Under the pieces are notes generated by a model, which saw only the letters and a program-made list of their open reading frames with translations, ran no database searches and was not told the DNA's origin. Both the position numbers and the translations under genes were made by a program. Source: Emticicia oligotrophica DSM 17448 (lineage in GTDB: Bacteria > Bacteroidota > Bacteroidia > Cytophagales > Spirosomataceae). Taken from it: 64,000 bases of DNA. Shown here in pieces: positions 28,689 to 51,596 of this stretch (position 1 is its first letter; each line of letters begins with the position of its first letter). Where the stretch lies: NCBI RefSeq assembly GCF_000263195.1, contig NC_018748.1:2666001-2730000 (forward strand). The letters run 5' to 3'.

Positions 28689-28767
28689 TAGTCTCTACTA
28701 TCGCTCATTTCTAATGCTTTTGATATTTACTATCAAAAATAAAGGAATAAAAAAACCGTAAATCAAG

Positions 28768-31358: not shown

Positions 31359-31395
31359 CGTCCGACAACGTACAAAGTATGTCCGAAAACGGACA
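31359..31395. promoter_or_regulatory. Paired dyad sites, probable activator binding sites (upstream copy)
   Basis: Site 2 (31380-31395) is the dyad TGTCCGAAAACGGACA. Site 1 (31359-31374) is CGTCC-N6-GTACA, a weaker version of the same dyad, with centres 21 bases apart (two helical turns). The centre of site 2 is 63 bases before the GG of a TTGGCAT box. An almost identical arrangement recurs before the fourth permease gene. I infer these are enhancer sites for the adjacent NtrC-family regulator. Confidence 0.65.
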
Positions 31396-31447: not shown

Positions 31448-31464
31448 TTGGCATAGCTTTGGAA
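31448..31464 (+). promoter_or_regulatory. Sigma-54-like promoter of the adaptor/ATPase/permease array
   Basis: TTGGCATAGCTTTGGAA has a near-perfect -24 half (TTGGCA) and a non-consensus -12 half (TTGGA where TTGCA is usual). GG sits at 31450-31451, so transcription would start near 31475. The second copy in this window has the same two halves and the same spacing, which supports it as a real element. Confidence 0.6.
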
Positions 31465-33728: not shown

Positions 33729-36158
33729 ATGTTATTTAATTATATAAAAATTGCATTTCGAAACCTCATTCGAAACAAAGTATATAGCTTCATCAATATT
33801 GTTGGTTTGGCTATGGGTATATCGGCATTTTTATTTATTCTAGAATACATTAGCCTTGAGAAAAGTGTGAATAAATTTCATGCGAACCTACCCAACATCT
33901 ATCGTTTGCTTAATCAGAATCCTCAGGGGGTAACTTGGGCCGATATGGAGCCGGGTTGGGCTCTGAAAGCAAAAGAGAGTTTTCCGGAGGTAAAAGATTT
34001 CTGCCGTTTTGAGCAAGGTGTAACCAAAGGAGTAGTAAAACGTGCCAATAGCAGAAGCGAACCATTTAGAGAAGCGGGTATTGGTTTTGCTGAAGGAAAT
34101 TTCTTTGAGTTCTTTAGTTTTCCTCTATTAGAAGGTAATGCGAAATCATTGGCGAAGCCCAATGTAGTTTTTATTTCTGAATCAAGTGCGAAGAAATATT
34201 TTGGAAAGGAAAACCCTATGGGGCAAATACTCATACTTGATAATCAGTTCGGTAACGCATCTTATACGGTTGAAGGTGTATTTGCTGATATGCTTGATAA
34301 CTCAGATATTCGATATGATATGGTGTTTTCGCTCGAAACACTTAAAAATCCAGCCAATCTGAAGGATAATAGTTGGGCGAGATTGGATAATTTAGATTCC
34401 CAGTACATTAGTACGTACTTTCTACTTAATGAGGGCGTAAATGTGAAAAATTTTGAGAAGAAACTCACAAATCTTCGCCAAAAATTAGGTAAAGAAAATG
34501 ATGGAGTGATTTTTAGATTACAAGCCTTAGCGAATATTCATTTAGGAGAATCTTTTTCCGATACCCTCCGAACAACAGGTAATATTAAATATGTGTATAT
34601 GTTAGGCGGAATTGCCTTTCTGATACTTATTATTGCTTGGTTTAATTACATCAATATTTCAACAGCTAATTCATTAAAACGTGCCAACGAGATTGGGGTA
34701 AGAAAAGTAATAGGGGCTAAACAGTCTGATTTACTCAAACAATTTTTGGCAGAATCATTACTTACAAACCTCTTAGGTTTTGGGGTATCGCTTTTATTGG
34801 TTATTATTCTACAGCCAGTATTTAATGATTTAATTGAAAAAAAGCTTTCATTTACGACTCTTCAATTTTCAAAAGATTGGATGATAGGTGTTGGACTATT
34901 GGCTTTGGGTTCAATTGGTTCGGGTGTACTAACTGCTTATTTTCTATCTTCGTTTAGCCCAGTAGAAACACTGAAAGGAAAATTTAATAAGTATTCGAAA
35001 GGGGTATTACTTCGTAAATCATTGGTTGTTTCACAGTTTGCAATTTCAATCATCTTGATTTTAGCAACTTGTATAATTTATCGACAACTGCAATTCATGC
35101 AGCAAAAAGATTTAGGTATGAATGTTAGTCAACTCTTGGTGATAAGAGGTGCAGAAGTTGGTAAAGATAGTACTTATAAAACTCGTAAAGACGCATTTAT
35201 TAATACTATTTCGCAGCAAAGCTATGTAAAAGATTATGCACTTTCGGGTAGCGTGCCGAGTAGTTGGTATAATTTCATGACTACTGGTCTTACTCAACCT
35301 AATTCGAAGCAAGGAGATGAACAAAAGACCTATGCTTTTGCAATTATCGGTGATAGATATTTACAAACCTATGGAATAAAATTAAAAGTGGGCAGAAATT
35401 TCACGCACGATGAATGTGATGTTGAATGGAATCAGAATAGTAAAGTGATGTTGAATGAAAGTGCAGTTGAGGCTTTAGGTTTCAAGACTCCAGAAGAGGC
35501 TATTCGAACAAAAATTCAATGGGATGAGCGTGTGCTTGAAGTAATAGGTGTAGTAAAAGATTATAATCACATGGGTGTTCAGCGAGCAATTGACCCAGTG
35601 ATATTCTATCCACAAAATAGTAGTTCATACTTTACGCTTAAGCTTTCTTCTAACGAAATTCAATCAAAAGTAGCAAGTTTAGAGAAAATCTATAAGACTT
35701 ATTTTGAGGGAAATCCGTACGAATACTTCTTTGTGGATGATAATTTTAATCGACAATACCTTTCTGAAGAGCAATATACTAAAATCTTTACAACTGCCTC
35801 GGTTTGGGCAATTATCATCGCTTGCTTAGGTCTTTTTGGCTTAGCCACTTTCACCGCTGAAAGCAGAACTAAAGAAATTGGCGTGCGAAAGGTTTTAGGG
35901 GCTTCGGTGGTGAGTATCATTACGCTTTTATCAAAAGATTTCCTTAAGTTGGTGTTTATTGCTATTGTGGTAGCCAGCCCTATAGCATACTATTTTATGA
36001 ATCAATGGCTGCAAGACTTTGCTTATAAGGCTGAAATCTCATGGTGGCTGTTTGCCATTGGAGGGGGCGTTGCCGTAATCATTGCTTTATTTACGGTGAG
36101 TTTTCAAGCCATTAAGGCCGCCCTGCTGAATCCTGTAAAATCACTCAAGACGGAATAA
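33729..36158 (+). CDS. FtsX/MacB-type ABC permease, array copy 1
   Basis: This 809-residue permease is built as two fused half-units, each a membrane helix, a periplasmic MacB-core domain and an FtsX three-helix domain. The first helix is at about 20-40. The EIGVRKV coupling motif is present in both halves (321-327 and 716-722), each after a helix pair like the one ending LLGLFGLATFT. It ends NPVKSLKTE, the tail shared by most copies. Fusion of two halves means one chain plus an ATPase dimer could form a complete MacB-like pump. It is the first of seven tandem paralogues, directly after the ATPase gene, and its start MLFNYIKIAFRN differs slightly from the MIRNY- start of most others. Substrate unknown. 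Confidence 0.93.
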   Translation: MLFNYIKIAFRNLIRNKVYSFINIVGLAMGISAFLFILEYISLEKSVNKFHANLPNIYRLLNQNPQGVTWADMEPGWALKAKESFPEVKDFCRFEQGVTKGVVKRANSRSEPFREAGIGFAEGNFFEFFSFPLLEGNAKSLAKPNVVFISESSAKKYFGKENPMGQILILDNQFGNASYTVEGVFADMLDNSDIRYDMVFSLETLKNPANLKDNSWARLDNLDSQYISTYFLLNEGVNVKNFEKKLTNLRQKLGKENDGVIFRLQALANIHLGESFSDTLRTTGNIKYVYMLGGIAFLILIIAWFNYINISTANSLKRANEIGVRKVIGAKQSDLLKQFLAESLLTNLLGFGVSLLLVIILQPVFNDLIEKKLSFTTLQFSKDWMIGVGLLALGSIGSGVLTAYFLSSFSPVETLKGKFNKYSKGVLLRKSLVVSQFAISIILILATCIIYRQLQFMQQKDLGMNVSQLLVIRGAEVGKDSTYKTRKDAFINTISQQSYVKDYALSGSVPSSWYNFMTTGLTQPNSKQGDEQKTYAFAIIGDRYLQTYGIKLKVGRNFTHDECDVEWNQNSKVMLNESAVEALGFKTPEEAIRTKIQWDERVLEVIGVVKDYNHMGVQRAIDPVIFYPQNSSSYFTLKLSSNEIQSKVASLEKIYKTYFEGNPYEYFFVDDNFNRQYLSEEQYTKIFTTASVWAIIIACLGLFGLATFTAESRTKEIGVRKVLGASVVSIITLLSKDFLKLVFIAIVVASPIAYYFMNQWLQDFAYKAEISWWLFAIGGGVAVIIALFTVSFQAIKAALLNPVKSLKTE

Positions 36159-36164
36159 ACTTCC

Positions 36165-36190
36165 GTAGAGACAAGCCATAGCCTATCTAC
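36165..36190. repeat. Degenerate GTAGAGAC palindrome between permease copies 1 and 2
   Basis: GTAGAGACAAGCC ... CTATCTAC is a worn copy of the GTAGAGAC...GTCTCTAC palindrome seen after copies 4 and 5, in the same position just after the permease stop codon. Confidence 0.6.
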
Positions 36191-36210
36191 ACATTAAAAA
36201 ATACAAAATT

Positions 36211-38652
36211 ATGATACGCAATTACTTTAAAACAGCTTGGAGAAATCTCCTCAAAAATAAAACCTTTAGCTCTATTAATATTATTGGGTTGGCAGTGAGT
36301 ATGTCGGTATGTTTATTAATACTTTCAATCATTGCTGAGCAAAAGAGTTATGACCAATTCCATCAAAATAAAGACCGAATCTATCGTATTTTATCTACTA
36401 GAAAGAATAATAGTCAGATGAAGGATATGGCTTCATCGGCGTTACCGTTGGGTGAAGAATTACGCAAGAATTATACAGGGGTAGACGCATCGGCAAGCTT
36501 AGTAAGAAACATTGGAGGAGATATTTTTTATAATGATAAAATAGCTTCAGGTGGTGGATATTTTACAGATGGTAATTTATTTAAAATATTAGATTTTAAG
36601 CTGGCTGCTGGTGATGCTGCAACTGCTTTGGAAAATCCTCGCTCATTAGTCATTAGCGAAGAGCTTGCCTCCCAACTGTTTTATAATGAGAATCCGATTG
36701 GGAAAATCGTTAATTTCAAAAATACCGATTTGAGTCCAACAGGGATAGACAACGGAAACAGAGAAACAGAATATGGACTTTTTACGATTACAGGTGTTTT
36801 GAAACCCGTTGAAGGTAAAACACATCTTCCATTCAAAATATTGGCTTCACTTAGCACGCTTAATGCACTTGCTAAAGATTCGATAGTAAATTATAAGATG
36901 AATGACTGGGGTAATATTTGGTCAAATTATACCTATGTATTGATGCAAAAAGGGAAAAGTGAGGCCGATTTACAACAAATTTTAAATAAGGTATCCGATA
37001 AATATTTCCCAAAGGGCGAAACAAATCAATATGCGTTTAAGGCTCAATCTATTACCGAAATTACTCCAGGTAGTGCTATTGGAAATGAAACGCACATTTC
37101 AATACCCAAAATAGTCTTAGTGATTCTAGGCGTATTATGTTTAATAGTAATGTTATCGGCCTGTTTAAATTACACTAATCTTTCGGTGGCAAGGTCATTG
37201 ACTCGAGCTAAAGAGGTGGGGGTAAGAAAAGTTTCAGGGGCCACTCGTAATCAAATATTTGGACAGTTTATTGCTGAATCTGTATTAATATCATTGGTTT
37301 CATTGGTTTTTTCTATTGTTATTTTGTTTGTTCTTCAATCACTTTTCGCAAACTTGGTTGTTAACAAATACCTAAACATTACATTTTCTCAGAATATTTC
37401 TCTTTACTTAATATTTATTGCCTTTAGTATTTTAGTAGGTGTTGTAGCGGGTATTTTACCATCTATTTATATTTCGGCTTTCAACCCAATTCAGATTTTA
37501 AAAAACTTTAGTGGTGTAAAAATCTTCAAGCGTCTTACAATCCGTAAAGCCTTGCTAGTCGTACAATTTTCGGTTTCATTGATTTTTATTATTTCAACAA
37601 CATTAATCTACCTTCAAACAGACCGAATTTTCAATTTTGATTATGGTTTTAATAAAGAAAATGTAGTAAACGTAAATCTCTATAAACAAGAAAACTATAA
37701 GCGATTTGCCCAAGCTATTGCTACAAATAAAGATGTTGTATCTGTTTCGGCTTGTATGTTTTTGCCAGCTACTGGTATGCAAAATGGCACAATTATAAAG
37801 AAATCTGATAGTCCGAAAGATAGTTTACAAGTTAATTTTATTGATATAGATGCTAAGTGCGTAGATGTATGGGGATTGAAACTTGTGGCGGGTAAAAACC
37901 TACCTGAGATTCCAAGTACTAATGGCGAAAAATATACACTTATCAATGAGAAAATGGTGAGTAATTTTAAGTTAGGAACTCCTAAGCAGGCAATCGGCCA
38001 ACGTATTTTGGTAGATGGCAATAACTTAGAAATTGTGGGTGTTGTAAAAGACTTTCAGTACCTCGATGTTATGCGTGCTATCGAGCCTCTGATGCTCCGT
38101 AATCGTCAATCAGAATTTAATTTCGCAACTATCAGAATCAACGGAAATAACCAAACAGAAACGCTTAAATTCCTTGAAGCTACTTGGAAAAAGGTAAATC
38201 CAATGACAAGGTTTGAATATGAGTTTTTCGACCAAGAATTATTACTAATTCATACAATGTTTAGCAATATAGCCAATGTATTAGGTTTCATCGCATTCTT
38301 GGCTGTTTTCATTTCTTGCTTGGGTTTGCTTGGTATGGCCGCCTACACCGCCGAAACTCGTCGTAAAGAAATGGGCATCAGAAAAGTTTTAGGCTCAGGT
38401 GTGTTTCAGATAATTATGTTGTTATCAAAAAGCTATATGATTTTGCTTGGAGTTGCCGTGTTTATTGCTACCCCATTGGCTTATTTTATTAATACTTTAT
38501 GGCTTGATTTCTTTGTCTCAAGGGTTTCAATAAGTCCTGCCGTAATAGGCTTTAGTATATTTATTTTATTGCTGATAAGTATTTTAACGGTAATTTCTCA
38601 GTCTTGGCGAGCAGCTAGGGTAAACCCAGTAGAGTCATTGAAAACGGAATAA
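36211..38652 (+). CDS. FtsX/MacB-type ABC permease, array copy 2
   Basis: This 813-residue paralogue starts MIRNYFKTAWRNLLKNK and shows the YDQFHQNKDRIYRI block after the first helix. Coupling motifs are EVGVRKV at 335-341 and EMGIRKV at 720-726; the isoleucine-glycine pattern is kept, but the second has E-M in place of E-I. The tail is VNPVESLKTE. Two periplasmic core domains lie at about 45-285 and 470-680. It lies 52 bases after copy 1, with the worn palindrome between. Its second FtsX domain continues LLSKSYMILLGVAVF rather than the LLSKDFLKLV of copies 1 and 3, so it is one of the more divergent members. Confidence 0.93.
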   Translation: MIRNYFKTAWRNLLKNKTFSSINIIGLAVSMSVCLLILSIIAEQKSYDQFHQNKDRIYRILSTRKNNSQMKDMASSALPLGEELRKNYTGVDASASLVRNIGGDIFYNDKIASGGGYFTDGNLFKILDFKLAAGDAATALENPRSLVISEELASQLFYNENPIGKIVNFKNTDLSPTGIDNGNRETEYGLFTITGVLKPVEGKTHLPFKILASLSTLNALAKDSIVNYKMNDWGNIWSNYTYVLMQKGKSEADLQQILNKVSDKYFPKGETNQYAFKAQSITEITPGSAIGNETHISIPKIVLVILGVLCLIVMLSACLNYTNLSVARSLTRAKEVGVRKVSGATRNQIFGQFIAESVLISLVSLVFSIVILFVLQSLFANLVVNKYLNITFSQNISLYLIFIAFSILVGVVAGILPSIYISAFNPIQILKNFSGVKIFKRLTIRKALLVVQFSVSLIFIISTTLIYLQTDRIFNFDYGFNKENVVNVNLYKQENYKRFAQAIATNKDVVSVSACMFLPATGMQNGTIIKKSDSPKDSLQVNFIDIDAKCVDVWGLKLVAGKNLPEIPSTNGEKYTLINEKMVSNFKLGTPKQAIGQRILVDGNNLEIVGVVKDFQYLDVMRAIEPLMLRNRQSEFNFATIRINGNNQTETLKFLEATWKKVNPMTRFEYEFFDQELLLIHTMFSNIANVLGFIAFLAVFISCLGLLGMAAYTAETRRKEMGIRKVLGSGVFQIIMLLSKSYMILLGVAVFIATPLAYFINTLWLDFFVSRVSISPAVIGFSIFILLLISILTVISQSWRAARVNPVESLKTE

Positions 38653-38706
38653 TATCTTGGTAATTATTACAAATACATCAGTTTCCCAGTAAACAATCAA
38701 AAAACC

Positions 38707-41142
38707 ATGATACGCAATTATTTAAAAATCGCTTGGAGAAATATTTTGAAGAATAAGTTATATAGCTTTATCAATATTTTTGGTCTAGCTATTGGTCTTA
38801 CCTGTTTTTTGTTGATAACACTTTATGTTGTTGATGAACTTAGTTATGACCGTCAGTTTAAAGATGCAGAGCGAATTTATCGTATCAATTCTGATATTAA
38901 GTTTGGAGGAGCTGAGCAACGAATGGCAGTGAGTTCTGACCCATTTGGGGCAATACTAAAAAAAGATTATGCGGAGGTTGAGCAGTATGTTCGCCTTTAT
39001 GCCAATAATAGTCGTAGATTTATCAAAAAAGGTAATGAATTTTTGGTTGAAAATAATTGCTTGCACGCAGATTCTACACTTTTAGATGTTTTTCCTTTGA
39101 ATATCATAGAAGGTGATTCGAGAAGGATTTTGACTGAACCTAACACGCTTGTTATTAGTCAAACCGCTGCTAAAAAATATTTTGGAAATGCTTCAGCTTT
39201 GGGTAAAACATTGACAATAGGAATCAATAACCCTATTGAATATAAAATTACAGCGGTTTATGAAGATATGCCTTCTAATATCCATTTTCAGACTGATATG
39301 TTTTTCCCATTCAAGAATATCAATGATTATAAATTTGATAATTTCTTGAATCATAATTTTTATACTTATATAAAACTTCGAAAAGGAGTTGATTATAAGG
39401 AGTTTGAAAAGAAATTTGATGTAGTGATTGATAAGTATATTTTACCACAAGCAAAGGTGTTCATGGATATTAATAGCATGGAAGACTTCAAAAAAGGTGG
39501 TAATTATTTGAAATATTCACTTACGCCGCTGTTGGATATTCACTTAAAATCTGACCGAATTTACGAGCTAAGTCCCAACGGCGATATTCAATATGTGTAT
39601 ATTTTTTCAGTAGTAGCCTTGTTTTTATTACTGATTGCGTGTATAAACTTTATGAATTTAAGTACGGCTCGTTCGGCCAATCGTGCCAAAGAAGTAGGAA
39701 TTCGTAAGGTAATGGGTACCCAACGAAATAGTCTTATTATACAATTTATGTCAGAGTCTGTACTTACTAGCTATTTAGCTTTTATGATTGCTCTTACAAT
39801 TGCTATTTTGTTGATTCCCTACTTTAATGATATTGCAGGAAAACAATTTACTATTCAGTCGCTTTTTCAGGTACAATATCTACCGTTTTTAATTCTTTTA
39901 CCTATGGCTGTTGGAGTTTTGGCGGGCTATTATCCTTCGTTTTTCTTGTCATCTTTCCGTCCTATCGAGGTATTGAAAAGTAAACTTAATGCCAATTACC
40001 GTCGTTCAAACTTTCGAAATACTTTAGTTACATTTCAATTTGTCACCTCGTTGGTTTTGGTTATTTCAACCTTTATCATTTATCGTCAACTCAATTATAT
40101 TCAAAATAAAAACTTGGGTTTCTCGAAAGACCAAATTTTAGTGGTCACGGGCACTTCTTCCTTACGAGATAATAATCATGTATTTAAAGAAGAAGTAAAG
40201 AAAATGGCGGGTGTAAAAAATGCCACTTTTGCTGGTTTTTTACCAGTAGCTAACTCATCTAGAACCGATAATACTTTTTCTAAGGAAGCTCTATTTAATA
40301 CCCAAAATAGCTTCAATATGCAAGCATGGGAAATTGATGAAGATTATATTCCTACCCTTGACATGAAAGTTTTACAAGGAAGGAATTTTTCAAAAGTATT
40401 TAGCACAGATTCTTCGGCCGTTATCATCAACGAAAAGGCCGCAAAAATGATTGGATACGATAACCCAATCGGTAAAAAACTTTATATCAATAATGGTAAT
40501 ATTAATGATGTGAAGGCTTTGACAATTATTGGCGTAGTCAAGAATTTTCATTATGAGTCGATGCGAGAATCGGTTGGTCCGCTATGTTTTCGCTATGGAA
40601 AAAGTGCTTGGGTAACGGCCTTCAAAATTAACACTGATGAGCCACAAACCCTTGTGAAACAAATCGAAGCAAAATGGAAGACTTTCGCCCCCGAAATACC
40701 ATTTAATTATCACTTTATGAACGAATCATTTGATGAAATGTATCGAGCCGAACAAAGAATCGGTACTATCGCAATGGTTTTTTCTTTACTTACTGTCTTT
40801 ATAGCTTGTTTGGGTTTGTTTGGTTTAATTACTTACATTGCCGAACAGCGTACAAAAGAAATTGGTGTAAGAAAAGTACTCGGAGCAAGTGTTTGGAGTA
40901 TAGTTCAACTGCTATCGAAAGACTTTCTGAAATTGGTTTGTTTAGCCTTTTTAATAGCCTCTCCGCTGGCCTATTATGCTATGAATATTTGGTTGAAAAG
41001 CTTTGCTTTTAGAACAGAAATTTCGATTTGGATATTTTTAGGGGCAGGAGTCGTTACTATTTTAATTGCAATCTTTACTGTTAGCCTCCAATCAATGAAA
41101 GCGGCCTTGATGAATCCCATAAAATCATTGAAAAGTGAATAA
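38707..41142 (+). CDS. FtsX/MacB-type ABC permease, array copy 3
   Basis: This 811-residue paralogue starts MIRNYLKIAWRNILKNKLYSFINIFGLAIGLT. The YDRQFKDAERIYRIN block follows the first helix. Coupling motifs are EVGIRKV at 329-335 and EIGVRKV at 718-724. It ends MNPIKSLKSE. It follows copy 2 by 54 bases with no palindrome between. After its stop codon come the second set of paired TGTCC dyads and the internal sigma-54-like promoter, so it closes the first transcription unit in the model proposed here, although read-through into copy 4 is also possible. Confidence 0.93.
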   Translation: MIRNYLKIAWRNILKNKLYSFINIFGLAIGLTCFLLITLYVVDELSYDRQFKDAERIYRINSDIKFGGAEQRMAVSSDPFGAILKKDYAEVEQYVRLYANNSRRFIKKGNEFLVENNCLHADSTLLDVFPLNIIEGDSRRILTEPNTLVISQTAAKKYFGNASALGKTLTIGINNPIEYKITAVYEDMPSNIHFQTDMFFPFKNINDYKFDNFLNHNFYTYIKLRKGVDYKEFEKKFDVVIDKYILPQAKVFMDINSMEDFKKGGNYLKYSLTPLLDIHLKSDRIYELSPNGDIQYVYIFSVVALFLLLIACINFMNLSTARSANRAKEVGIRKVMGTQRNSLIIQFMSESVLTSYLAFMIALTIAILLIPYFNDIAGKQFTIQSLFQVQYLPFLILLPMAVGVLAGYYPSFFLSSFRPIEVLKSKLNANYRRSNFRNTLVTFQFVTSLVLVISTFIIYRQLNYIQNKNLGFSKDQILVVTGTSSLRDNNHVFKEEVKKMAGVKNATFAGFLPVANSSRTDNTFSKEALFNTQNSFNMQAWEIDEDYIPTLDMKVLQGRNFSKVFSTDSSAVIINEKAAKMIGYDNPIGKKLYINNGNINDVKALTIIGVVKNFHYESMRESVGPLCFRYGKSAWVTAFKINTDEPQTLVKQIEAKWKTFAPEIPFNYHFMNESFDEMYRAEQRIGTIAMVFSLLTVFIACLGLFGLITYIAEQRTKEIGVRKVLGASVWSIVQLLSKDFLKLVCLAFLIASPLAYYAMNIWLKSFAFRTEISIWIFLGAGVVTILIAIFTVSLQSMKAALMNPIKSLKSE

Positions 41143-41151
41143 GGACGTGCA

Positions 41152-41187
41152 TGTCCAAAGACGTACAATAGTGTCCATTTTCGGACA
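41152..41187. promoter_or_regulatory. Paired dyad sites, probable activator binding sites (internal copy)
   Basis: Site 1 (41152-41167) is TGTCC-N6-GTACA. Site 2 (41172-41187) is TGTCCATTTTCGGACA, whose reverse complement differs from the upstream site 2 by one base. Centres are 20 bases apart. The site 2 centre is 63 bases before the GG of a TTGGCAT box, exactly as in the upstream copy. The stem ATAGTGTCC / GGACACTAT followed by T-rich sequence could also act as a terminator for copy 3. Confidence 0.65.
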
Positions 41188-41239
41188 CTATTATATTTTA
41201 TTTTCTTTATAAATTACTGATAGTAAGTGTTTTGAAAAT

Positions 41240-41256
41240 TTGGCATGTAGTTGGAT
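41240..41256 (+). promoter_or_regulatory. Internal sigma-54-like promoter before permease copy 4
   Basis: TTGGCATGTAGTTGGAT has the same TTGGCAT and TTGGA halves with the same seven-base gap as the upstream promoter. Expected start of transcription is near 41267, 16 bases before the ATG at 41283. Confidence 0.6.
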
Positions 41257-41282
41257 TGAATAAAATAAATTATGAAAAAGCT

Positions 41283-43715
41283 ATGTTAAAAAACTACTTC
41301 AAAGTTGCAGTTCGAAACCTACTCAAAAACAAAGCATTGTTTGGTATCAATGTTTTGGGTCTAGCAATTGGTTTAGCTACATTCCTAACAATAAGTCTTT
41401 TTGTGTTAGATGAGTGGAGCTATGATACATTCAATTCCGAGAATATTGCTAGGATTGTTTTGCAAGCCAAAATGGGTGAAGAAAAAATCAATGAAGCAGC
41501 TGTTATGGCTCCTGTAGCAGCTACGCTCAAACAGGCTATTCCTGAAATAAAAGAAACCACTCGAATTCATAAAATTACTGATGCAGCTAAAGTGAAATTA
41601 GCTCAAAAAACTATTCGAAACGGGAAATTATTTTTTGCTGATGAAACATTTTTTGATGTTTTCTCCATAAAAATGATTCAAGGTAATCCTAAAACTGCCT
41701 TGAAAGAACCTTATTCGATTGTACTGACACAAGAGCAAGCCAAGCTTTATTTTGGCGATACAGACCCCCTGAATAAAACAATTACTATCGAGGGTATTGG
41801 CATTTATGGACTCAATGGTTTTAATAATTTTTCTGGGCAATATACGGTAAGTGGCATTATTGAAAAAATTCCAGCAAATGCACATTTTCATTTTGATTTA
41901 CTTGGTTCGATGGCTACGAATTCGGCAGCTAATTCGCCTAGTTGGCTTGCAGGTCAATATTATACTTATTTGAGCCTAAAAGGAAATAGTGATTTGAAGC
42001 AAATCGAAAGCAAAATCAAATCAGTGACAGACAAATATTTTAGTGCTGACCTCAAGGCACAAATGGGTATGAATTTAAGTGAATTTGAAGCAAAAGGTAA
42101 TAAAGTAAATTTGGTCTTACAACCCATTAAGGATATCCATCTTTACTCTAATCTTAGCGGAGAATTTGAAGCAGGAGGTAGTTATAAAACTGTACTTATA
42201 TTCAGTACTGTTGCTCTCTTTATGCTTTTAATTGCTTGCATTAATTTCATAAATCTAAGTACTGCTTCGGCTTCAAAACGCCTCAAGGAAATTGGTATGC
42301 GTAAAGTACTGGGTTCAGCCCAACAACAATTAATCATACAGTTTTTAGTTGAGTCGTTTTTAGCTACTTTTTTTGCACTTCTACTCGGACTCGGAATTTT
42401 CTATTTCACACTTCCTTTATTTAATCAGTTAAGTGGAAAAGCATTTTATATATGGCAATTATTATCGTTGCAAAATCTTGCTTTATTGGTGGGTCTTGTC
42501 TTTGCTATAAGCTTATTGGCTGGTGGATATCCAGCATTCTTTATGTCTTCGTTTAATCCTTTAGGGGCTTTAAAAAGTCGATTTACATCAGGTAGAAGCA
42601 AAGGGGTTAGAAGTACTTTGGTAGTTTTTCAGTTTGGCATTTCAGCCATTCTAATTATTGGGACAATCGTAGTGAACCAGCAAATGGATTATATCCAGAA
42701 AAAAGACATTGGTTATGACCGTAATTCACTTATTGTTATACGTGATGCAGGTTTTTTAGGAAATAAGCTTAGTGTTTTTAGAGACGAACTAAAAAAAGAC
42801 CCACGAGTAAAGAATATTACCACATCGGCATATGTACCTGCGGGTCCGACCGATGATAATATGAATTCATTTTTAAAATCAGATGACCCTACACAACACA
42901 TTCGTATGAGAATTTATAGTGTAGATGAGGCTTATGTGCCCACTTTGGGAATGAAAATCAATTTTGGACGAAATCTTTCTGATGCGTTAGACCAAAAATC
43001 AAATAATGTTTTAATCAACGAAACGGCAATAAAGGCTCTGGGATTACCTAAAAATCCAGTAGGTGAAATAATCAAATTAGATGATAACTCTACCAAAACA
43101 GTCATAGGTGTTGTCAAAGATTTTCATGCACGCTCTTTGCGTGAGCCAATCGAGCCACTTATCATGCAATATGGGCCATATTATGGTCTAATTTTAAAAG
43201 CCGAAAACAAAGATATGGCTAGCTTATTGGCTAAAATGGAAAGTATTTGGAAGAGTTTTGGTACGGGCGAAACCTTTAGATATGCTTTTTTAGATGAACT
43301 ATACAATGAAACTTATCTGAAAGAAGCCAATATGTTAATTATTCTGCGGGCTTTTGCAATTCTTACCATTTTTATTGCGTGTTTAGGTTTGTTCGGGCTA
43401 ATTACCTACACTACTCAACAGCGTACAAAAGAAATTGGGATTCGTAAAACATTAGGAGCCACAGTTCTACAAATTGTGATTTTATTAGCCAAAGATTTTA
43501 TAAAGTTAGTAGGTTTCTCATTGTTGATAGCTTTTCCGTTGGGCTATTATTTAATGAATAATTGGCTACAAGATTTTGAATATAGGGTTGGAATTAGTAC
43601 TTGGGTTTTTGTACTATCAGGACTGATGACCTTAGCAATAGCTTTTTTAACAATTGCCTTTCGAAGTATAGAGGCGGCGTTGATGAATCCTGTAAAATCA
43701 TTGAAAACAGAATAA
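41283..43715 (+). CDS. FtsX/MacB-type ABC permease, array copy 4
   Basis: This 810-residue paralogue has its start placed at 41283 (MLKNYFKVAVRNLLKNK). This aligns with the MIRNY- starts of the other copies and lies just downstream of the internal promoter. An in-frame ATG at 41232 would add 17 residues but lies upstream of the promoter box. Coupling motifs are EIGMRKV at 336-342 and EIGIRKT at 717-723; the threonine in the second is unique in the array. It ends MNPVKSLKTE. It is the first gene of the proposed second unit. Confidence 0.93.
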   Translation: MLKNYFKVAVRNLLKNKALFGINVLGLAIGLATFLTISLFVLDEWSYDTFNSENIARIVLQAKMGEEKINEAAVMAPVAATLKQAIPEIKETTRIHKITDAAKVKLAQKTIRNGKLFFADETFFDVFSIKMIQGNPKTALKEPYSIVLTQEQAKLYFGDTDPLNKTITIEGIGIYGLNGFNNFSGQYTVSGIIEKIPANAHFHFDLLGSMATNSAANSPSWLAGQYYTYLSLKGNSDLKQIESKIKSVTDKYFSADLKAQMGMNLSEFEAKGNKVNLVLQPIKDIHLYSNLSGEFEAGGSYKTVLIFSTVALFMLLIACINFINLSTASASKRLKEIGMRKVLGSAQQQLIIQFLVESFLATFFALLLGLGIFYFTLPLFNQLSGKAFYIWQLLSLQNLALLVGLVFAISLLAGGYPAFFMSSFNPLGALKSRFTSGRSKGVRSTLVVFQFGISAILIIGTIVVNQQMDYIQKKDIGYDRNSLIVIRDAGFLGNKLSVFRDELKKDPRVKNITTSAYVPAGPTDDNMNSFLKSDDPTQHIRMRIYSVDEAYVPTLGMKINFGRNLSDALDQKSNNVLINETAIKALGLPKNPVGEIIKLDDNSTKTVIGVVKDFHARSLREPIEPLIMQYGPYYGLILKAENKDMASLLAKMESIWKSFGTGETFRYAFLDELYNETYLKEANMLIILRAFAILTIFIACLGLFGLITYTTQQRTKEIGIRKTLGATVLQIVILLAKDFIKLVGFSLLIAFPLGYYLMNNWLQDFEYRVGISTWVFVLSGLMTLAIAFLTIAFRSIEAALMNPVKSLKTE

Positions 43716-43721
43716 ATCCAC

Positions 43722-43749
43722 GTAGAGACAAAGCATGCCTTGTCTCTAC
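43722..43749. repeat. GTAGAGAC...GTCTCTAC palindrome between permease copies 4 and 5
   Basis: A 28-base dyad with outer arms GTAGAGACAA / TTGTCTCTAC and centre GCATGC, one mismatch pair inside. It belongs to the same family as 36165-36190 and 46162-46189. Confidence 0.75.
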
Positions 43750-43774
43750 AATCGAAATATAAAATCACAAAATT

Positions 43775-46156
43775 ATGATACGCAATTACTTTAAAATCGC
43801 TTGGAGAAACATTATCAACAACAAACTCTATTCTGTCATTAATATTTTGGGACTGAGTTTGGGTTTGACTGTTTGTTTACTTATCACCTTATTTGTGAAA
43901 GATGAACTTAGTTACGATCAATTTCAAAGTAAAAAACACAGCATTTATCGCTTAGTTTCTGATGAAATAAGTCCGAGTGGAGAAGTCCATAAAATAGGCA
44001 TTTCGGGAATGGTACAGGGGGCAACTTTTAAACGACAAGTTCCGGAATTAGAAGAAATGGTAAGAATTGTAGGGGATAGATTTAATATTCGCCATAACAA
44101 CGAAATCTTTATTCAAGAGGTTACGAAAGTAGATAGTAGTTTCTTCAAAATTTTTGATGCTGAATTTGTGGAAGGGTCTCCTTACAGAGCCCTATCTGAC
44201 CCACAATCGGTTGTTATATCGGAAGAAGTAGCCGAACGTTTTTTTGGGAAAAACAAGGCTTTAGGAAAGCCGCTTTCTATCTTTTACGATAATGAATTTC
44301 AGAATTTTACCGTTTCGGGTGTTACAAAAAAATCACCGATTAATTCAAGTATTCAGATAAACTTATTATTGCCATTGCATCATGATAAAGTACAAGATGA
44401 CCAATGGATTAACTTTTATATGAATACATTTTTCACGGTAAAAGAAGGAGCTAATCCCGCTATAATTGAGCAAAAATTTGCTAAAATCTATGCTGCGGAG
44501 GCTAAAGAACAAATAGCTCAGGCCTTGAAAGATTGGGGTTATAAAGGCAAATTAGTCTGGAAATTACAGCCATTTCTTGAAATGCACCTAAGTAAAGATT
44601 ATCAAGCTCAAAATGGAATTAAAGAGTCTGGAAATAAGCTTTTTTCTTATTTTTTAACTGGTATTGCGGCGTTTATTCTAATAATTGCTTGTATAAACTT
44701 TGTGAATATTGCTATTTCTCGTTCGATGAAACGTGCCAAAGAAATTGGTGTTAGGAAAGTAATGGGCAGCGAACGCAAGCAACTAATTATACAATTTTTA
44801 TCCGAGTCGGCACTTTTGAGTTTAATAGCTTTTATTGTAGCTATTTGCATTTCTGTTTTGGCATTGCCAACTTTTAATCAACTTTCCGATAAAACACTTT
44901 CATTTAGCTATTTATTAGACACTAAGTTGGTGCTACTTTATCTAGCTATCTTTATTCTAACTGCTTTTTTATCTGGTTTTTATCCTGCCTTGGTTTTATC
45001 GGGTTTTCAGCCAGTAGAAACACTTTATGGGCGATTTAGATTTGGAGGTAAAAATTTGCTACAAAAATCGCTCACGGTTTTGCAATTTGGTTTAGCTACT
45101 TTCTTTATTCTACTCACGATAGTGCAGTTTAAGCAAGTAGATTTATTCATGAACCAGAGTTTGGGTTATGATGATTCGAATATTATGATTGTGAATGCTG
45201 GAAACGTTGAACGTTCGAAAGCCAACGTTTTTATCAGTGAATTAGAGAAATACCCAACGATTCAGCAAGTGGCTCCACGTCAGCAAGGTTTTTGGTTTAC
45301 GCTATCTACCGTTAATGGTGATAAACAGCTCAACCATGATTTAGAAGTAGTTGATAATAGATACATTGAGTTACTTGGATTAAAAGTGTTACAAGGACGT
45401 AATTTTTCGCCATCTTTTCCAAGTGATACTGCTACTGCGGTATTAGTCAATGAAGCGTTTGTCAAGGAAGCTAATTGGAAAAATCCAATCGGTCAGACGA
45501 TTGCTTTCCATAATAAAGATAAATACCAAGTTATAGGAGTTATTAAAGATTATCATTATAGTTCATTATACGAAAAGGTACGTCCACAACTTTTCATTGC
45601 CGACCCTAAGCATGGAGGTTACGGTGCTTTCTATATTCGAATAACTGGACAGAATATCTCGCAAACAATTGCTTATGTAAGAGAAAAATTCAAGAGTTCG
45701 ATGCCAACAAAACCATTTGAGTATGAATTTTTACATGAAACCAATGCAAAGAACTACACGAAGGAAATAAAAATGAAGCAAATAATTGGCTGGGCTGCAT
45801 GGCTAACAATTTTTATTTCTTGTATCGGACTTTTCGGTCTTTCTTCTTTAGCTACTGAAAAGCGTTTCAAAGAAATTGGTGTACGAAAAGTTCTTGGAGC
45901 AAGTACTAATAGTATCGTAAGAATTTTGTCGATTGATTTTCTAAAACTCATTCTTATTGCTTATTTGATAGCTGCACCAGCTGCCTACTATGCGGCAGAA
46001 CAATTGCTACAAAGTTATCCATATCGCATTCAACAAGGGGCTGACATGTTTTTACTAACCATTATAGGATTATTGATGGTTGGTTTACTTACGGTAAGTT
46101 ATCAGGCAATGAAAGCTGCCATGATGAACCCAGTAAAATCATTAAAAACAGAATAA
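43775..46156 (+). CDS. FtsX/MacB-type ABC permease, array copy 5
   Basis: This 793-residue paralogue starts MIRNYFKIAWRNIINNKLYSVINILGLSLGLT. The YDQFQSKKHSIYRLV block follows. Coupling motifs are EIGVRKV at 323-329 and EIGVRKV at 700-706. It ends MNPVKSLKTE. The first periplasmic domain is shorter than in copies 2-4, which accounts for most of the length difference. DNA around its start (AAAATTATGATACGCAATTAC) is nearly identical to that of copies 2 and 6, showing recent duplication or conversion of the gene edges. Confidence 0.93.
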   Translation: MIRNYFKIAWRNIINNKLYSVINILGLSLGLTVCLLITLFVKDELSYDQFQSKKHSIYRLVSDEISPSGEVHKIGISGMVQGATFKRQVPELEEMVRIVGDRFNIRHNNEIFIQEVTKVDSSFFKIFDAEFVEGSPYRALSDPQSVVISEEVAERFFGKNKALGKPLSIFYDNEFQNFTVSGVTKKSPINSSIQINLLLPLHHDKVQDDQWINFYMNTFFTVKEGANPAIIEQKFAKIYAAEAKEQIAQALKDWGYKGKLVWKLQPFLEMHLSKDYQAQNGIKESGNKLFSYFLTGIAAFILIIACINFVNIAISRSMKRAKEIGVRKVMGSERKQLIIQFLSESALLSLIAFIVAICISVLALPTFNQLSDKTLSFSYLLDTKLVLLYLAIFILTAFLSGFYPALVLSGFQPVETLYGRFRFGGKNLLQKSLTVLQFGLATFFILLTIVQFKQVDLFMNQSLGYDDSNIMIVNAGNVERSKANVFISELEKYPTIQQVAPRQQGFWFTLSTVNGDKQLNHDLEVVDNRYIELLGLKVLQGRNFSPSFPSDTATAVLVNEAFVKEANWKNPIGQTIAFHNKDKYQVIGVIKDYHYSSLYEKVRPQLFIADPKHGGYGAFYIRITGQNISQTIAYVREKFKSSMPTKPFEYEFLHETNAKNYTKEIKMKQIIGWAAWLTIFISCIGLFGLSSLATEKRFKEIGVRKVLGASTNSIVRILSIDFLKLILIAYLIAAPAAYYAAEQLLQSYPYRIQQGADMFLLTIIGLLMVGLLTVSYQAMKAAMMNPVKSLKTE

Positions 46157-46161
46157 CGCCC

Positions 46162-46189
46162 GTAGAGACGTTTCATGAAACGTCTCTAC
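46162..46189. repeat. Perfect 28-bp GTAGAGAC...GTCTCTAC palindrome between permease copies 5 and 6
   Basis: GTAGAGACGTTTCA followed by its exact reverse complement, just after the stop of copy 5. It is the best-preserved member of the family in this window. Confidence 0.85.
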
Positions 46190-46205
46190 AAATCACCATA
46201 AAATT

Positions 46206-48632
46206 ATGATACGCAATTACCTAAAAATCGCTGTTAGAAATTTGTTGAAAAACAAATCTTACGCACTTATCAATATCGTAGGTTTATCGGTAGCTTTTGG
46301 AGCTGCCATTTTGTTATTTCTTACCGCTCATTTCGAATTTTCTTTCGATAATTTCCACACTAATAAAGAGCGTATTTATAAAGTTTTTTATAAGCTAAAC
46401 TTGGCAGAAAAACAACAAATGGGTACTTCTGTTCCTGCACCACTGCGTGGGGCATTAGCTTCTGAGTTTAAGTCAGAAATCAAATACCTAACACGCATTA
46501 TGGATAGTGGCGTGCAGATAGTTCAAGGCGAAAAAACAATTGATAATGACCTAAATTATGTTGATGCCGACTTCTTGAAAATGTTTTCGTTTAAAATGCT
46601 AAAAGGCGACCCAAATACGGCTTTAAACGATTTACGTAGCATTGTAATTAATGAATCAACATCCAAGAAATTATTTGGCGATTCGGAGCCATTAGGCCAA
46701 ACACTTAAGCTGAATTTTGGTGAAAAAATGGAGGCTTTTATTGTAAGTGGAGTAATTGCCGATGCCCCCGAAAATTCAAGTGTTGAAAGTGAAATGATGC
46801 TTAGGTTTGAAAATAATCCGTCCTACCATGATTTGAAAGATGGATGGAATAACCAAAATCACCAACTCTATGTACAACTAGCGGATAATATTACACACGA
46901 TAACTTTGAAAAAAGACTTAAACCTTTCACTCGTAAATATTATAAAACCTCGATTGAGCAAATTCTGAAAGAAGGAGGAAAACCCGATGAACGAGGCGAA
47001 GTTTTTAGTATAAGACTTATGCCTTTATTAGAAGAGCATTTTATAAAAAACTTGGGCGGAATACAGGTTTTAGATAAAACCTACCCATATATGTTGTTGA
47101 TTATTAGTGTATTGGTAGTTTTGGTAGCTTGTATCAATTTTATTAATTTATCAATTGCTCGTTCGCTCGAACGTGCCAAAGAAGTAGGCATGCGAAAAGC
47201 TTTAGGGGCGGTAAAAAATCAGATTCTAGCTCAGTTTTGGGGTGAGGCTTTTATTTTATGTATCATTGGTTTTACGATAGGAGGGGTATTGGCCGTAACT
47301 CTGATGCCAAGCTATAATTCTATTTTTCAGAGTTTTATTTCTTTTAAAAGTCTGCTTAACCCTTGGGTAGCGGTTTTATTGTTGGCGAGTTTCCTAATTG
47401 TTACACTCGTTGCTGGAGGTTACCCAGCATTAATTGTTACAAAATTCAACATTATTGAAGTTTTAAAAGGAAAAGTAAAGGTGAGTACACGCTCAGGTGG
47501 ACTAAGAAATACTCTAATTATTGTCCAATTTAGTATTGCTACCTTGCTTATTAGCAGCACTTTGATTGTTTGGAAACAAATTGATTATTTAAGAAATAAA
47601 CCTTTAGGTTTTGATGAAAGTCAAGTAATTAGTATTCCCGTTGGACATGAAGTTCAAGGTACAAAAATGCTTGAATTTATGAGAAATAAGCTGGCCAATT
47701 ATCCACAAATTCAGAGTATTACTGCCGCCGATATTAATATTGGCAGAGGAAAAGATAATTCGATGTCGCACTCGGGTTATGGGTTTGAAATGGAAGGAAA
47801 AACTTATCATACCAATGGACTAAACGTTGATTATGATTACATCAAAACACTTGGGCTAAGCCTCACGAATGGACGTGATTTTTCAAGAGAATTTCAATCT
47901 GATAAATCAAGAAGTATTGTTGTAAATGAGTCTATGGTGAAACAGTTAGGCTTCAAGAATCCAATCGGGAAAAATATCCCAATTGGTGATAGTTTAGGCC
48001 GAACTATTGTGGGCGTGGTGAAAGATTATCATTTCGAATCACTAAAAAATAAAATCGAATCTATGACCTTCTTCCTGCAAGGCGATTTTGGCTATAGTTA
48101 TATTTTTGTCAAATTAGCTCCGCAGGCATCGCCCAAAGAAACAATGGATTTATTAGCAAAAGCCTACAAAGAAATCGCTCCTAAATCGGTATTTCAAGCT
48201 TCGTTTTTAGATGAAAACACTAACAATCTTTATAGAAAAGAGGAGCGTTTTTCTCAAATTATTATGAGTGCTGCAGCCTTAGCTATTTTATTATCTTGTA
48301 TGGGTTTATTTGCCATTGCTTTAATGATGATTGCCCAACGTACCAAAGAGATTGGTATTCGAAAAGTATTAGGAGCGAGTATCCCAAGTTTAGTGCTTTT
48401 ACTTTCTAAAGATTTCTTGGTTTTGGTTTCAATTGCTATAATGATAGCCTCTCCAATTGCTTATTATCTCATGGAAAAATGGCTAACAGATTTTGTCTAT
48501 CGCATTAATATTGGCTGGAATGTATTTTTAATGGCAGGTCTAACTGCTGTCGTAATTGCCTTATTGACAGTTAGTTATCAGGCAGTAAAAGCGGCTTTGA
48601 TGAATCCTGTAAATAGTTTGCAAAATGAATAG
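46206..48632 (+). CDS. FtsX/MacB-type ABC permease, array copy 6
   Basis: This 808-residue paralogue starts MIRNYLKIAVRNLLKNKSYALINIVGLSVAFGAA. The FDNFHTNKERIYKVF block follows the first helix. Coupling motifs are EVGMRKA at 326-332 (alanine at the last place) and EIGIRKV at 715-721. The tail reads MNPVNSLQNE, unlike the NPVKSLKTE of the other copies. Its last eight bases (ATGAATAG) contain the start codon of the methyltransferase gene, so the altered tail probably arose when the two genes became overlapped. Confidence 0.93.
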   Translation: MIRNYLKIAVRNLLKNKSYALINIVGLSVAFGAAILLFLTAHFEFSFDNFHTNKERIYKVFYKLNLAEKQQMGTSVPAPLRGALASEFKSEIKYLTRIMDSGVQIVQGEKTIDNDLNYVDADFLKMFSFKMLKGDPNTALNDLRSIVINESTSKKLFGDSEPLGQTLKLNFGEKMEAFIVSGVIADAPENSSVESEMMLRFENNPSYHDLKDGWNNQNHQLYVQLADNITHDNFEKRLKPFTRKYYKTSIEQILKEGGKPDERGEVFSIRLMPLLEEHFIKNLGGIQVLDKTYPYMLLIISVLVVLVACINFINLSIARSLERAKEVGMRKALGAVKNQILAQFWGEAFILCIIGFTIGGVLAVTLMPSYNSIFQSFISFKSLLNPWVAVLLLASFLIVTLVAGGYPALIVTKFNIIEVLKGKVKVSTRSGGLRNTLIIVQFSIATLLISSTLIVWKQIDYLRNKPLGFDESQVISIPVGHEVQGTKMLEFMRNKLANYPQIQSITAADINIGRGKDNSMSHSGYGFEMEGKTYHTNGLNVDYDYIKTLGLSLTNGRDFSREFQSDKSRSIVVNESMVKQLGFKNPIGKNIPIGDSLGRTIVGVVKDYHFESLKNKIESMTFFLQGDFGYSYIFVKLAPQASPKETMDLLAKAYKEIAPKSVFQASFLDENTNNLYRKEERFSQIIMSAAALAILLSCMGLFAIALMMIAQRTKEIGIRKVLGASIPSLVLLLSKDFLVLVSIAIMIASPIAYYLMEKWLTDFVYRINIGWNVFLMAGLTAVVIALLTVSYQAVKAALMNPVNSLQNE

Positions 48633-49215
48633 AGAATCATATAATAAAATTGCCGAAATATGGGCTGAGCATAGGCATAGTTCATTTGTGAGCCAGATTA
48701 TTGTAGATTTTGCAGAAAAGTTAAGTCTGAATGCTAAAGTATTAGATATAGGATGTGGAACTGGTATGCCTGTGGCAGGTTATTTAGCTTCAAAAGGCTT
48801 GCTTGTAACTGGTATTGATTTCGCCGAAAAAATGATAGAAATAGCTCAAAGTCAACAGATTCCCCAAACTCAATTTCTTGTTTCTGATTTTTTCGACTTC
48901 GAAACCAAGGAAACATTTGATGGTATTTTAGCTTGGGATTCGTTCTTCCATTTTCCAAAAGAAAAGCAAGCAATGATTTACCCTAAAGTGGCTCGATTAC
49001 TCAATTCTGGCGGATATTTACTTTTTACCCACGGTGATGATGATGGCGAGCATACAAATCCAATGATGGGCGAGGAGTTTTATTACAGTGCTATTTTGAA
49101 AGAAGATATTATACAATTACTTGAGGCTAATGGATGCGAAGTTATTGATATGATAAAAGATTACCGAGAAAAAGACACACATCGAGGTTTGGTAGTTTTA
49201 GCACAGAAGAAATAA
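48625..49215 (+). CDS. Class I SAM-dependent methyltransferase inside the permease array
   Basis: This 196-residue methyltransferase has motif I VLDIGCGTGMP at 39-49, an acidic residue at the end of strand 2 (VTGIDFAEKMIEIA), then FLVSDFFDF and FDGILAWDSFFHFPKEKQ (motifs II and III). It is complete and short, like ubiquinone/biotin-type small-molecule methyltransferases, with no membrane segment. It overlaps the sixth permease gene by eight bases and is followed 14 bases later by the seventh, so it is embedded in the operon and translationally coupled. It could modify the exported molecule or be a passenger. The target cannot be named from sequence. Confidence 0.9.
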   Translation: MNRESYNKIAEIWAEHRHSSFVSQIIVDFAEKLSLNAKVLDIGCGTGMPVAGYLASKGLLVTGIDFAEKMIEIAQSQQIPQTQFLVSDFFDFETKETFDGILAWDSFFHFPKEKQAMIYPKVARLLNSGGYLLFTHGDDDGEHTNPMMGEEFYYSAILKEDIIQLLEANGCEVIDMIKDYREKDTHRGLVVLAQKK

Positions 49216-49229
49216 ACTTAAATTAAACG

Positions 49230-51596
49230 ATGATTCGTAATTACTTAAAAGTAGCGATTAGAAACCTTTGGAAAAATAAGCTTTTCTCCTTTATCAATAT
49301 TATGGGGTTAGGTTTAGCCATTCCATTTGCTTTGATGGCATTAATGCAGCTTCAAGGAGCATTTGAATTTGATAATTTTCATCCTAATTCTGAGCGAATT
49401 TATAGAATTATTACCGATGAAAAAAATCAAGAAAATGGCACGCAACACTATGCTTCTTCTCCATATTTATTAGCCGATAATCTTCGAAACAATTATGCTT
49501 CAGTTGAGAAAGCCACGAAAGTTGTTCGTGAATTTGGCTGGGAGCTAAATAATCAATTAAAAAATATTCGGGTAAACACGATTTATATTGAGCCTTCTTT
49601 CTTTGATATTTTTGGATTTAGGCTAGCCAAAGGTTCAATACCAATGGAGCCTAATAGTTTGATTTTAAGTCATGAAACGGCTGTCAAGTTTTTTAATGAT
49701 AGTAATCCAATTGGGCAGTTTCTCTCGCATCCAACCTATGGAAGTTTTAAAATCACAGGTGTTTTGAAACCTTTCAAAAGAGGTACACAATTTCGGAGTG
49801 ATGTGATGGTTTCGATGGCTACTTATGAGAAACTTAATGCCGAGCAGTTAAAGCCAACTTCATGGGAAAGATTAGAAACACACACTTTTGTGCGACTTTC
49901 TCCCAATGCCTCAACTCAAGCTTTAGATGTAGCTTTGAATGAGATTGCTAAGAAAACCAATACTTTAATTAGTAAGGCCCAAAAGAGCAATACTTTTCGT
50001 AAACAAAAGTTAGTGGATATCTCGCCAAGTACAGAAAAACTCCGTAATAATCCTTATGTAGAAGATATGCAGGATATTTATTTCAACTTTACTATTCCAC
50101 TCATGATTTTATTATTGGCTGGGTTTAATTATACAAATCTGACTTTAGCGAGGTCATTGAGCCGCTCGAAAGAGGTAGGAGTAAGAAAAGTAATGGGAGC
50201 ATTCAGAAGCCAATTAATCACACAATTTATCGCCGAGGCTATCGTGATTGCTTTTTTATCACTTTTTGTTGGTGTTATCATTTTACAAATTATAAAATCA
50301 TCTATACACGTCAATTGGGTAACTTGGGAAGTAGAAAACCAGACTAAGATTTGGGTACTTTTCATTGTATTTGCTTTATTTTTAGGAATTTTAGCAGGTA
50401 GCTTACCTGCTTGGATTTTATCGAGTTTTCAGCCTGTAAAAGTTCTTAAAGGGAATGTTTTACCCGCTAGTTTCGGAAAAATAGGTTTTCGAAAGGTATT
50501 GGTTGTCATTCAGTTTGTGGCTTCGCTGGGGTTCATTTTTCAAATTGGGCATCTTTATAATCAGTTTGAATATATGGCAACAGAAAATGAGAATTTTAAT
50601 CGGAAAGGAATTTTTAACATTTCTCTTACCGCTCATAATTATGCTTTATTAGCGAATGAAGTAGCAACAAATAAGGATGTAGAAAAAATAGGATTTGTGT
50701 CGGTACCTTTTGGTGGAATCTCGACCGAATATGCAATCAAAGCAAAAGATAAAAGTGAAAATATCGCTTCATATTATTATGCCGCCGATGCCAATTTTAT
50801 TGAAAATATGGGTTTAAATATTCTGGCGGGTACAAATCTACCCAAAACAGAATCAGATACAGCAACCAACTTTGTATTGCTCAATGAACAAGCACTTAAA
50901 CGCCTACATTTAGGTACTCCACAAGAAGCCATCGGAAAAGCTATTTATCTTAATAATTCATCCAATGCTTCGCAAATAGTGGGTATAGTGAAAGACTTTT
51001 GTCATTTTAATTATCAATTTGAAAAGCAGCCAGTGGTATTTCAATATAATCCTGCTCAGTTTCATGTAATGGTTGTTAAAACTAATATTAATACATCCAA
51101 AACTGACTTTTTGTCTGATATTCAGCGTATCTGGAAGAAACAAAATCCATATCAACAATTAAGTTACTCATGGTTTGAGCAAGAACTTTACGAACGTTAT
51201 TATCCAGCCGAAGATATGAAAATGATGGGTATGGCAGCACTCGTAATCATCGTCATTGCGGTTATGGGTTTGTTGGGTATGGTGAATTACAGTACAGAGA
51301 AACGTACTAAAGAAATCGGAATTAGAAAAGTAATGGGGGCATCGGTTGGAGAAATTGTGCGAATACTTTCTTGGAGTTTCATGAAACTCCTTATTTGGGC
51401 TGGAATCATAGCTATTCCGATTGGTTTTGCTGAAAGCTTGGTTTTAGACAATTTATTTACCTTTTATGCTGGACTCAATATTGGTTTAATGACTATCTTT
51501 TTTATCTGTATTTTCTGTATTGCGGGCAGTACGATTGCATATTACGCTATCCGAACAGCGAATCTAAATCCAGTGAAAACTTTGAGGACGGAATAA
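49230..51596 (+). CDS. FtsX/MacB-type ABC permease, array copy 7
   Basis: This 788-residue paralogue is the shortest and most divergent. It starts MIRNYLKVAIRNLWKNKLFSFINIMGLGLAIPFALMALMQL, with FDNFHPNSERIYRI after the first helix. Coupling motifs are EVGVRKV at 315-321 and EIGIRKV at 695-701. The second FtsX domain continues ILSWSFMKLLIWAGIIAIPIGFAESLVLDNL in place of the LLSKDFLKL... pattern. It ends LNPVKTLRTE. It is the last gene of the array; a strong terminator follows 25 bases after the stop codon. Confidence 0.93.
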   Translation: MIRNYLKVAIRNLWKNKLFSFINIMGLGLAIPFALMALMQLQGAFEFDNFHPNSERIYRIITDEKNQENGTQHYASSPYLLADNLRNNYASVEKATKVVREFGWELNNQLKNIRVNTIYIEPSFFDIFGFRLAKGSIPMEPNSLILSHETAVKFFNDSNPIGQFLSHPTYGSFKITGVLKPFKRGTQFRSDVMVSMATYEKLNAEQLKPTSWERLETHTFVRLSPNASTQALDVALNEIAKKTNTLISKAQKSNTFRKQKLVDISPSTEKLRNNPYVEDMQDIYFNFTIPLMILLLAGFNYTNLTLARSLSRSKEVGVRKVMGAFRSQLITQFIAEAIVIAFLSLFVGVIILQIIKSSIHVNWVTWEVENQTKIWVLFIVFALFLGILAGSLPAWILSSFQPVKVLKGNVLPASFGKIGFRKVLVVIQFVASLGFIFQIGHLYNQFEYMATENENFNRKGIFNISLTAHNYALLANEVATNKDVEKIGFVSVPFGGISTEYAIKAKDKSENIASYYYAADANFIENMGLNILAGTNLPKTESDTATNFVLLNEQALKRLHLGTPQEAIGKAIYLNNSSNASQIVGIVKDFCHFNYQFEKQPVVFQYNPAQFHVMVVKTNINTSKTDFLSDIQRIWKKQNPYQQLSYSWFEQELYERYYPAEDMKMMGMAALVIIVIAVMGLLGMVNYSTEKRTKEIGIRKVMGASVGEIVRILSWSFMKLLIWAGIIAIPIGFAESLVLDNLFTFYAGLNIGLMTIFFICIFCIAGSTIAYYAIRTANLNPVKTLRTE

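Follow-up and report, generated by a model that had tools for sequence, protein, structure and literature searches.

Among the described machines, the closest solved fold to the permeases reported here is that of E. coli YbbAP(-TesA), in which a single pseudosymmetric YbbP chain of 10 TM helices is bound by two copies of one ATPase, YbbA (PMC12646458). Such homologues work by mechanotransmission, in which the cycle of ATP binding and hydrolysis drives movement of the periplasmic domains, with no passage of substrate through the inner membrane (PMC12646458, PMC8277102). Other relatives join their parts in different ways: in MacAB-TolC the 4-TM permease carries the ATPase at its N-terminus; the DarBCD darobactin exporter (NF038008, NF038010, NF038007) consists of a fused permease, an adaptor, and an ATPase as separate proteins; and the ADOP family (TIGR03434) comprises full-length two-half proteins. 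For the service of several transporters by one ATPase, MsmK and MsmX provide a precedent (PMC8579813), although these drive CUT1 importers, which are of another ABC type and have unrelated permeases.

We analyzed a 64,000-nt stretch of DNA (hereafter the window) from the 5.2-Mb genome (labelled G000) of Emticicia oligotrophica DSM 17448 (NC_018748.1). As summarized in Table 1, the window contains seven full-length permeases of 788-813 aa behind one adaptor and one linked ATPase, and inspection of the sequences located two coupling motifs in every one of the seven, which confirmed what a preliminary description of the locus had claimed; that description had omitted the methyltransferase gene and the divergent response regulator. 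A whole-genome profile search identified MacB_PCD in both the first and the second half of all seven permeases, and Pfam recognized two FtsX stretches apiece in P1 and P7, so that together with the LolD/MacB-type ATPase the system falls within the type VII ABC (MacB/FtsX) superfamily. Exactly seven such two-domain permeases occur in the genome, all within the array, and its remaining six MacB_PCD proteins are single-domain proteins of 403-420 aa. For P4, the TTG start at 41232 given by the mechanical ORF call was rejected in favor of ATG 41283, since a sigma54-like box covers 41240-41254 and a conserved MLKNY start lies at the ATG. A gene for a protein with DUF937 and OmpA domains (51781-53082) lies immediately 3' of the array, and two neighboring, similar small lipoprotein-like ORFs (28134-29319) are found close to the regulator.

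Table 1. Genes and putative regulatory sites of the permease array (positions within the window).
Feature	Coordinates	Strand	Length and characteristics
Sigma54-type response regulator	29703..31049	-	receiver, AAA+, Fis HTH (Pfam); divergent from pump genes
Perfect palindrome TGTCCGAAAACGGACA	31380..31395	+	upstream of adaptor; proposed activator site
Sigma54-like -24/-12 box TTGGCATAGCTTTGG	31448..31462	+	52 bp 3' of palindrome
HlyD/MacA-like periplasmic adaptor	31589..32836	+	415 aa; Pfam HlyD_3
Class A ATPase, LolD/MacB/DarD-like	32945..33622	+	225 aa; LSGGQQQRVA, D-loop NLDS
Permease P1	33729..36158	+	809 aa; two MacB_PCD and two FtsX (Pfam, genome profile search)
Permease P2	36211..38652	+	813 aa; MacB_PCD, family profiles, coupling motifs, tree
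Permease P3	38707..41142	+	811 aa; MacB_PCD, family profiles, coupling motifs, tree
Internal palindrome TGTCCATTTTCGGACA	41172..41187	+	1 mismatch; upstream of P4
Internal sigma54-like box TTGGCATGTAGTTGG	41240..41254	+	52 bp 3' of internal palindrome; proposed second array promoter
Permease P4	41283..43715	+	810 aa; start ATG 41283; structure model, closest fold YbbP
Permease P5	43775..46156	+	793 aa; MacB_PCD, family profiles, coupling motifs, tree
Permease P6	46206..48632	+	808 aa; MacB_PCD, family profiles, coupling motifs, tree
SAM-dependent methyltransferase	48625..49215	+	196 aa; Pfam; between P6 and P7, overlaps P6 stop
Permease P7	49230..51596	+	788 aa; two FtsX in Pfam, MacB_PCD, coupling motifs, tree

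The system resembles MacAB-TolC in its MacB_PCD and FtsX domains, its HlyD-type adaptor, and the TolC of its regulon, but departs from it in having a separate ATPase, a fused 8-TM two-half permease, many permeases per adaptor, an unlinked TolC, and a second ATPase. The adaptor belongs to the HlyD/RND_mfp family, scoring above the cut-off for RND_mfp, and reached only 45 bits against the cut-off of 342 for the MacA equivalog. DarBCD, with its similar division into proteins, was the best equivalog for the adaptor and the ATPase, yet the scores lay far below the curated cut-offs (permeases 95-152 of 700 bits, adaptor 211 of 450, and ATPase 280 of 375); furthermore, it has one permease against the seven found here, and no darobactin genes were noticed on reading the window. 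The permeases themselves scored best with ADOP (260-312 bits against a cut-off of 622.3), from which they differ in being accompanied by an ATPase and an adaptor, and the linked ATPase gave 222 bits with the LolD equivalog, whose cut-off is 307.75.

A structural model of P4 (mean pLDDT 82.5, pTM 0.74) displayed eight long TM-like helices and two periplasmic domains. Its best match in the PDB was YbbAP (E 2.8e-17), followed by MacB, LolCDE, and BceAB, with TM-scores of about 0.4, the low values probably arising from differing relative positions of the domains. YbbAP likewise has a single fused permease and a separate ATPase, whereas YbbP has 10 TM helices against eight in the model, and YbbAP works without an adaptor or TolC. 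A YbbP-like single chain implies that one permease should form one complete transporter, which argues against the assembly of permeases in combinations that had been considered in the preliminary description. The many paralogues, probably expressed together, would suit such assembly; however, each chain is a complete fused pair holding both halves and both coupling helices, and YbbP works as a single chain (PMC12646458), and we thus regard combinatorial assembly as very improbable.

The permeases P2-P7 share 28-37% identity with P1. In trees of 438 and 484 sequences drawn from related loci, the copies were distributed over distinct clades, most of them well supported, that also contain orthologues from other genera and, for several copies, from other families, and only P2 and P7 shared a fairly small clade (11-13 members). 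Comparison of each copy with its nearest orthologue gave dN of 0.07-0.18 against dS of about 1.7-3.7 or saturated. The seven permeases are thus, as judged from these comparisons, old lineages under purifying selection, in agreement with the specialization that distinct ancient clades had been expected to indicate; recent tandem duplication was rejected because the copies belong to old clades. Decay of several copies into relics, which the preliminary description had named as a finding that would speak against it, has its counterpart in the large arrays of relatives, in which some permease ORFs are split or shortened (G013a, G018a; L095-L096, L104-L113), where birth and death of copies seems to be ongoing, but in this genome the idea is contradicted by seven intact copies with both motifs and low dN relative to dS, leaving it a negligible probability. 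The order of the permeases is not kept within the genus, save for P6-methyltransferase-P7 in G004, suggesting that the permease set turns over while the rest of the system stays. A methyltransferase gene also adjoins permeases in L001 and G004, and a second permease size class of about 880-910 aa is scattered in relatives (L122, L123, L136), in some cases with the same palindrome upstream.

Seven permeases proved to be a modest number: four other genomes of the genus carry 6 (G007), 14 (G003), 15 (G004), and about 26 (G001) full-length permeases, one class A ATPase being found with each array, and a 200-kb stretch of G013 holds 36. The layout with the regulator divergent from an adaptor, ATPase, and permeases, in some cases with TolC ahead of the adaptor, recurs at loci of named Flavobacteriaceae, Spirosoma, Chitinophagaceae, and an Ignavibacteriales bin, and in a locus search relatives of the permeases turned up across a broader range of the phylum. 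Of 238 evenly sampled Bacteroidota genomes, 68 contain the permease, and exactly the same 68 contain the class A ATPase. Arrays of this kind are thus common in Bacteroidota, and the literature searched contained no functional description of them. A computed sigma54 enrichment for FtsX-like permeases (COG0577) has been noted in this phylum (PMC12316311).

A composite promoter signature, made up of the palindrome TGTCCGN4CGGACA, a spacer of 50-54 bp, and a sigma54-like box, precedes both the adaptor and P4. The exact palindrome occurs twice in the 5.2-Mb genome, at window position 31380 and at C5:1646370, where it precedes an unlinked operon, DUF5916-ATPase a-TolC. The box alone, with 11 matches at one mismatch or fewer against 5.4 expected, is weak evidence; it is the palindrome with its fixed spacing that stands out. 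Within the genus, all eight array-bearing genomes carry an exact palindrome by the array and a second by the unlinked ATPase-TolC operon; further palindrome sites in G003 and G008 lie nearly all upstream of permeases, and the three array-less genomes have no palindrome site, no class a ATPase, and no module kinase. Across 2.9 Mb of loci, 65 composite sites were found against 5 in the reversed sequences, mostly with a spacing of 50-54 bp, and since the loci had been picked for these genes it is the reversed control, not the site count, that carries weight. Fifty-six of the 65 lie at most 450 bp upstream of adaptor, permease, class a, or DUF5916 genes on the correct strand, among them sites ahead of class a genes from other genera (L143, L144, L145, L164). 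The DUF5916 gene (L100:4689-7268) heads the a-TolC operon in G000, G004, G005, and G007, and is missing from it in G001, G002, G003, and G008.

Unlike many of its relatives, the array has neither TolC nor a kinase alongside. Because the genome encodes many TolC-type proteins by profile search, presence alone cannot single out the partner, whereas the regulatory site points to a candidate, the unlinked TolC gene standing under the same promoter signature. The response regulator, whose divergence from the adaptor gene was seen again in related loci, is probably the activator of the pump genes, and would act by binding the palindromes. It reads GAFTDA at the sigma54-contact motif, the textbook form of which is GAFTGA. 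The best match in this genome to array-associated kinases is an orphan kinase (L101:13338-14663; G000:C5:1995337), which probably drives the regulator; within the genus, genomes with an array encode the module kinase at an unlinked position, but its gene adjoins the regulator in G012-G014, which belong to other genera of the family, and its presence pattern across the genus matches that of class a. In the module kinases, two TM segments are joined by a very short loop and a periplasmic sensor domain is absent, which hints, as a lead only, that the signal probably lies in the membrane or cytoplasm. This kinase architecture, together with BceAB among the fold matches of P4, would also suit several permeases being flux sensors that signal to the kinase, as in Bce-type modules; however, the kinase of this genus is encoded away from the array and has a cytoplasmic region of considerable size, and the permeases bear two MacB-like periplasmic domains, and we consider this reading quite unlikely.

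The ATPase of the unlinked operon is of a class (class a) distinct from that of the array-linked enzyme, and stands under the same palindrome, and the view that the linked ATPase is the whole motor supply is not supported. The earlier picture of seven alternative pumps on one ATPase hence survives in its many permeases, one adaptor, and one linked ATPase, and gives way at the second, co-regulated ATPase; dedicated co-regulated ATPases elsewhere for each copy, which would have spoken against that picture, were encountered once, as one extra enzyme and not one per copy. One dedicated ATPase per permease was rejected, the genome search having found this single extra ATPase sharing the promoter signature, and service of class a to the single-domain permeases was disfavored because array-less congeners keep six MacB_PCD matches each without class a.

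Class a formed one clade with support of 1.0 in the ATPase tree. In the alignment, the D-loop Asp was present in 56/56 class A proteins and in 0/34 class a proteins; all 56 of the former have Cys in Walker A, Arg after LSGGQQQ, and the D-loop NLDS, and all 34 of the latter have Ser or Ala and Leu or Ile at those positions, with NLH or NLN as the D-loop. Class a is single-copy in 46 of the 68 genomes with permease and class A, and none of the 238 has it without class A. With absence of class a called by a score threshold and permeases scored as up to four or more per genome, at least four permeases were counted in 40 of the 46 genomes with class a against none of the 22 without it (Fisher p = 9e-13, kinship ignored). 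The two genes are adjacent in the order A-a-permease in L166, L167, L168, and L010, and class a lies at the 3' end of the array in L047, L050, L053, and L070. Two distinct ATPase classes, one of them non-canonical, are thus co-inherited, as looked for in a heterodimer. For TAP and other heterodimeric ABC exporters, the D-loop Asp is important at the consensus site, and the degenerate site tolerates its loss (PMC4242082, PMC7756269); the extension of this rule to type VII ABC systems is our inference. Most probably A and a supply the motor jointly, possibly with an A:a heterodimer as its leading form.

A motor of A:A homodimers driving all seven permeases, with class a as an accessory (a brake, a regulator of A, or a participant in TolC-linked assembly), is the alternative to which we attach appreciable weight, though we doubt it. 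Class A is the array-linked enzyme, and the 22 genomes with no detected class a keep one to three permeases, so that A alone can presumably drive a pump. The two coupling motifs of a permease moreover look alike; they did not differ clearly between permeases of genomes with and without class a, and coupling-helix differences as a marker of which half binds which ATPase gave no clear signal. Nevertheless, class a retains Walker A, LSGGQ, and the Walker B Glu, tracks array size, and adjoins class A and permeases in other lineages. Two parallel motors, with some permeases on A:A and others on a:a, would be in keeping with two ATPase classes per array genome and with widely divergent permease lineages, but an ATPase without the D-loop Asp is a poor fit to an efficient homodimer, to judge from other ABC exporters (PMC4242082, PMC7756269), and class a never occurs without A in the sample, which makes this arrangement unlikely.

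Taken together, the gene content, promoter signatures, and co-inheritance lead us to favor, as the probable reading, a sigma54-controlled, MacAB-TolC-like type VII ABC export regulon in which exchangeable permeases, each a fused protein, would use a shared motor. Each permease, a predicted complete pair of MacB-like halves with 8 TM helices and two periplasmic domains, would dock in turn on the shared cytoplasmic A and a motor, the single MacA-like adaptor, and a TolC, and would pick up a particular class of envelope substrate, either in the periplasm or in the outer leaflet; by homology it would work by mechanotransmission, and given the adaptor and TolC the substrate would probably be exported across the outer membrane. 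The regulon would comprise three transcription units sharing the activator palindrome and box, namely adaptor-A-P1-P2-P3, P4-P5-P6-methyltransferase-P7 from the internal promoter, and the unlinked DUF5916-ATPase a-TolC. The extension of this scheme to a modular exporter found throughout the phylum, with one A:a motor, one adaptor, one TolC, a sigma54 activator site, and from a few to tens of permeases, is put forward tentatively, as a possibility rather than an expectation.

What this account adds is the proposed split regulon, a further class of ATPase that lacks the D-loop Asp, and the association of that class with array size. If true, it connects this ATPase and a TolC with the array, a connection that gene-by-gene annotation would miss, the promoter signature can be used to find the regulon in related genomes, and an array lacking a described function becomes a testable system. 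To our knowledge, the characterized type VII ABC members all use two copies of one ATPase, and a heterodimeric motor, if true, would be unusual among these machines. If the reading holds, export in Bacteroidota would follow a general plug-in design, in which the substrate modules multiply while there is still only one motor, one adaptor, one exit channel, and one switch.
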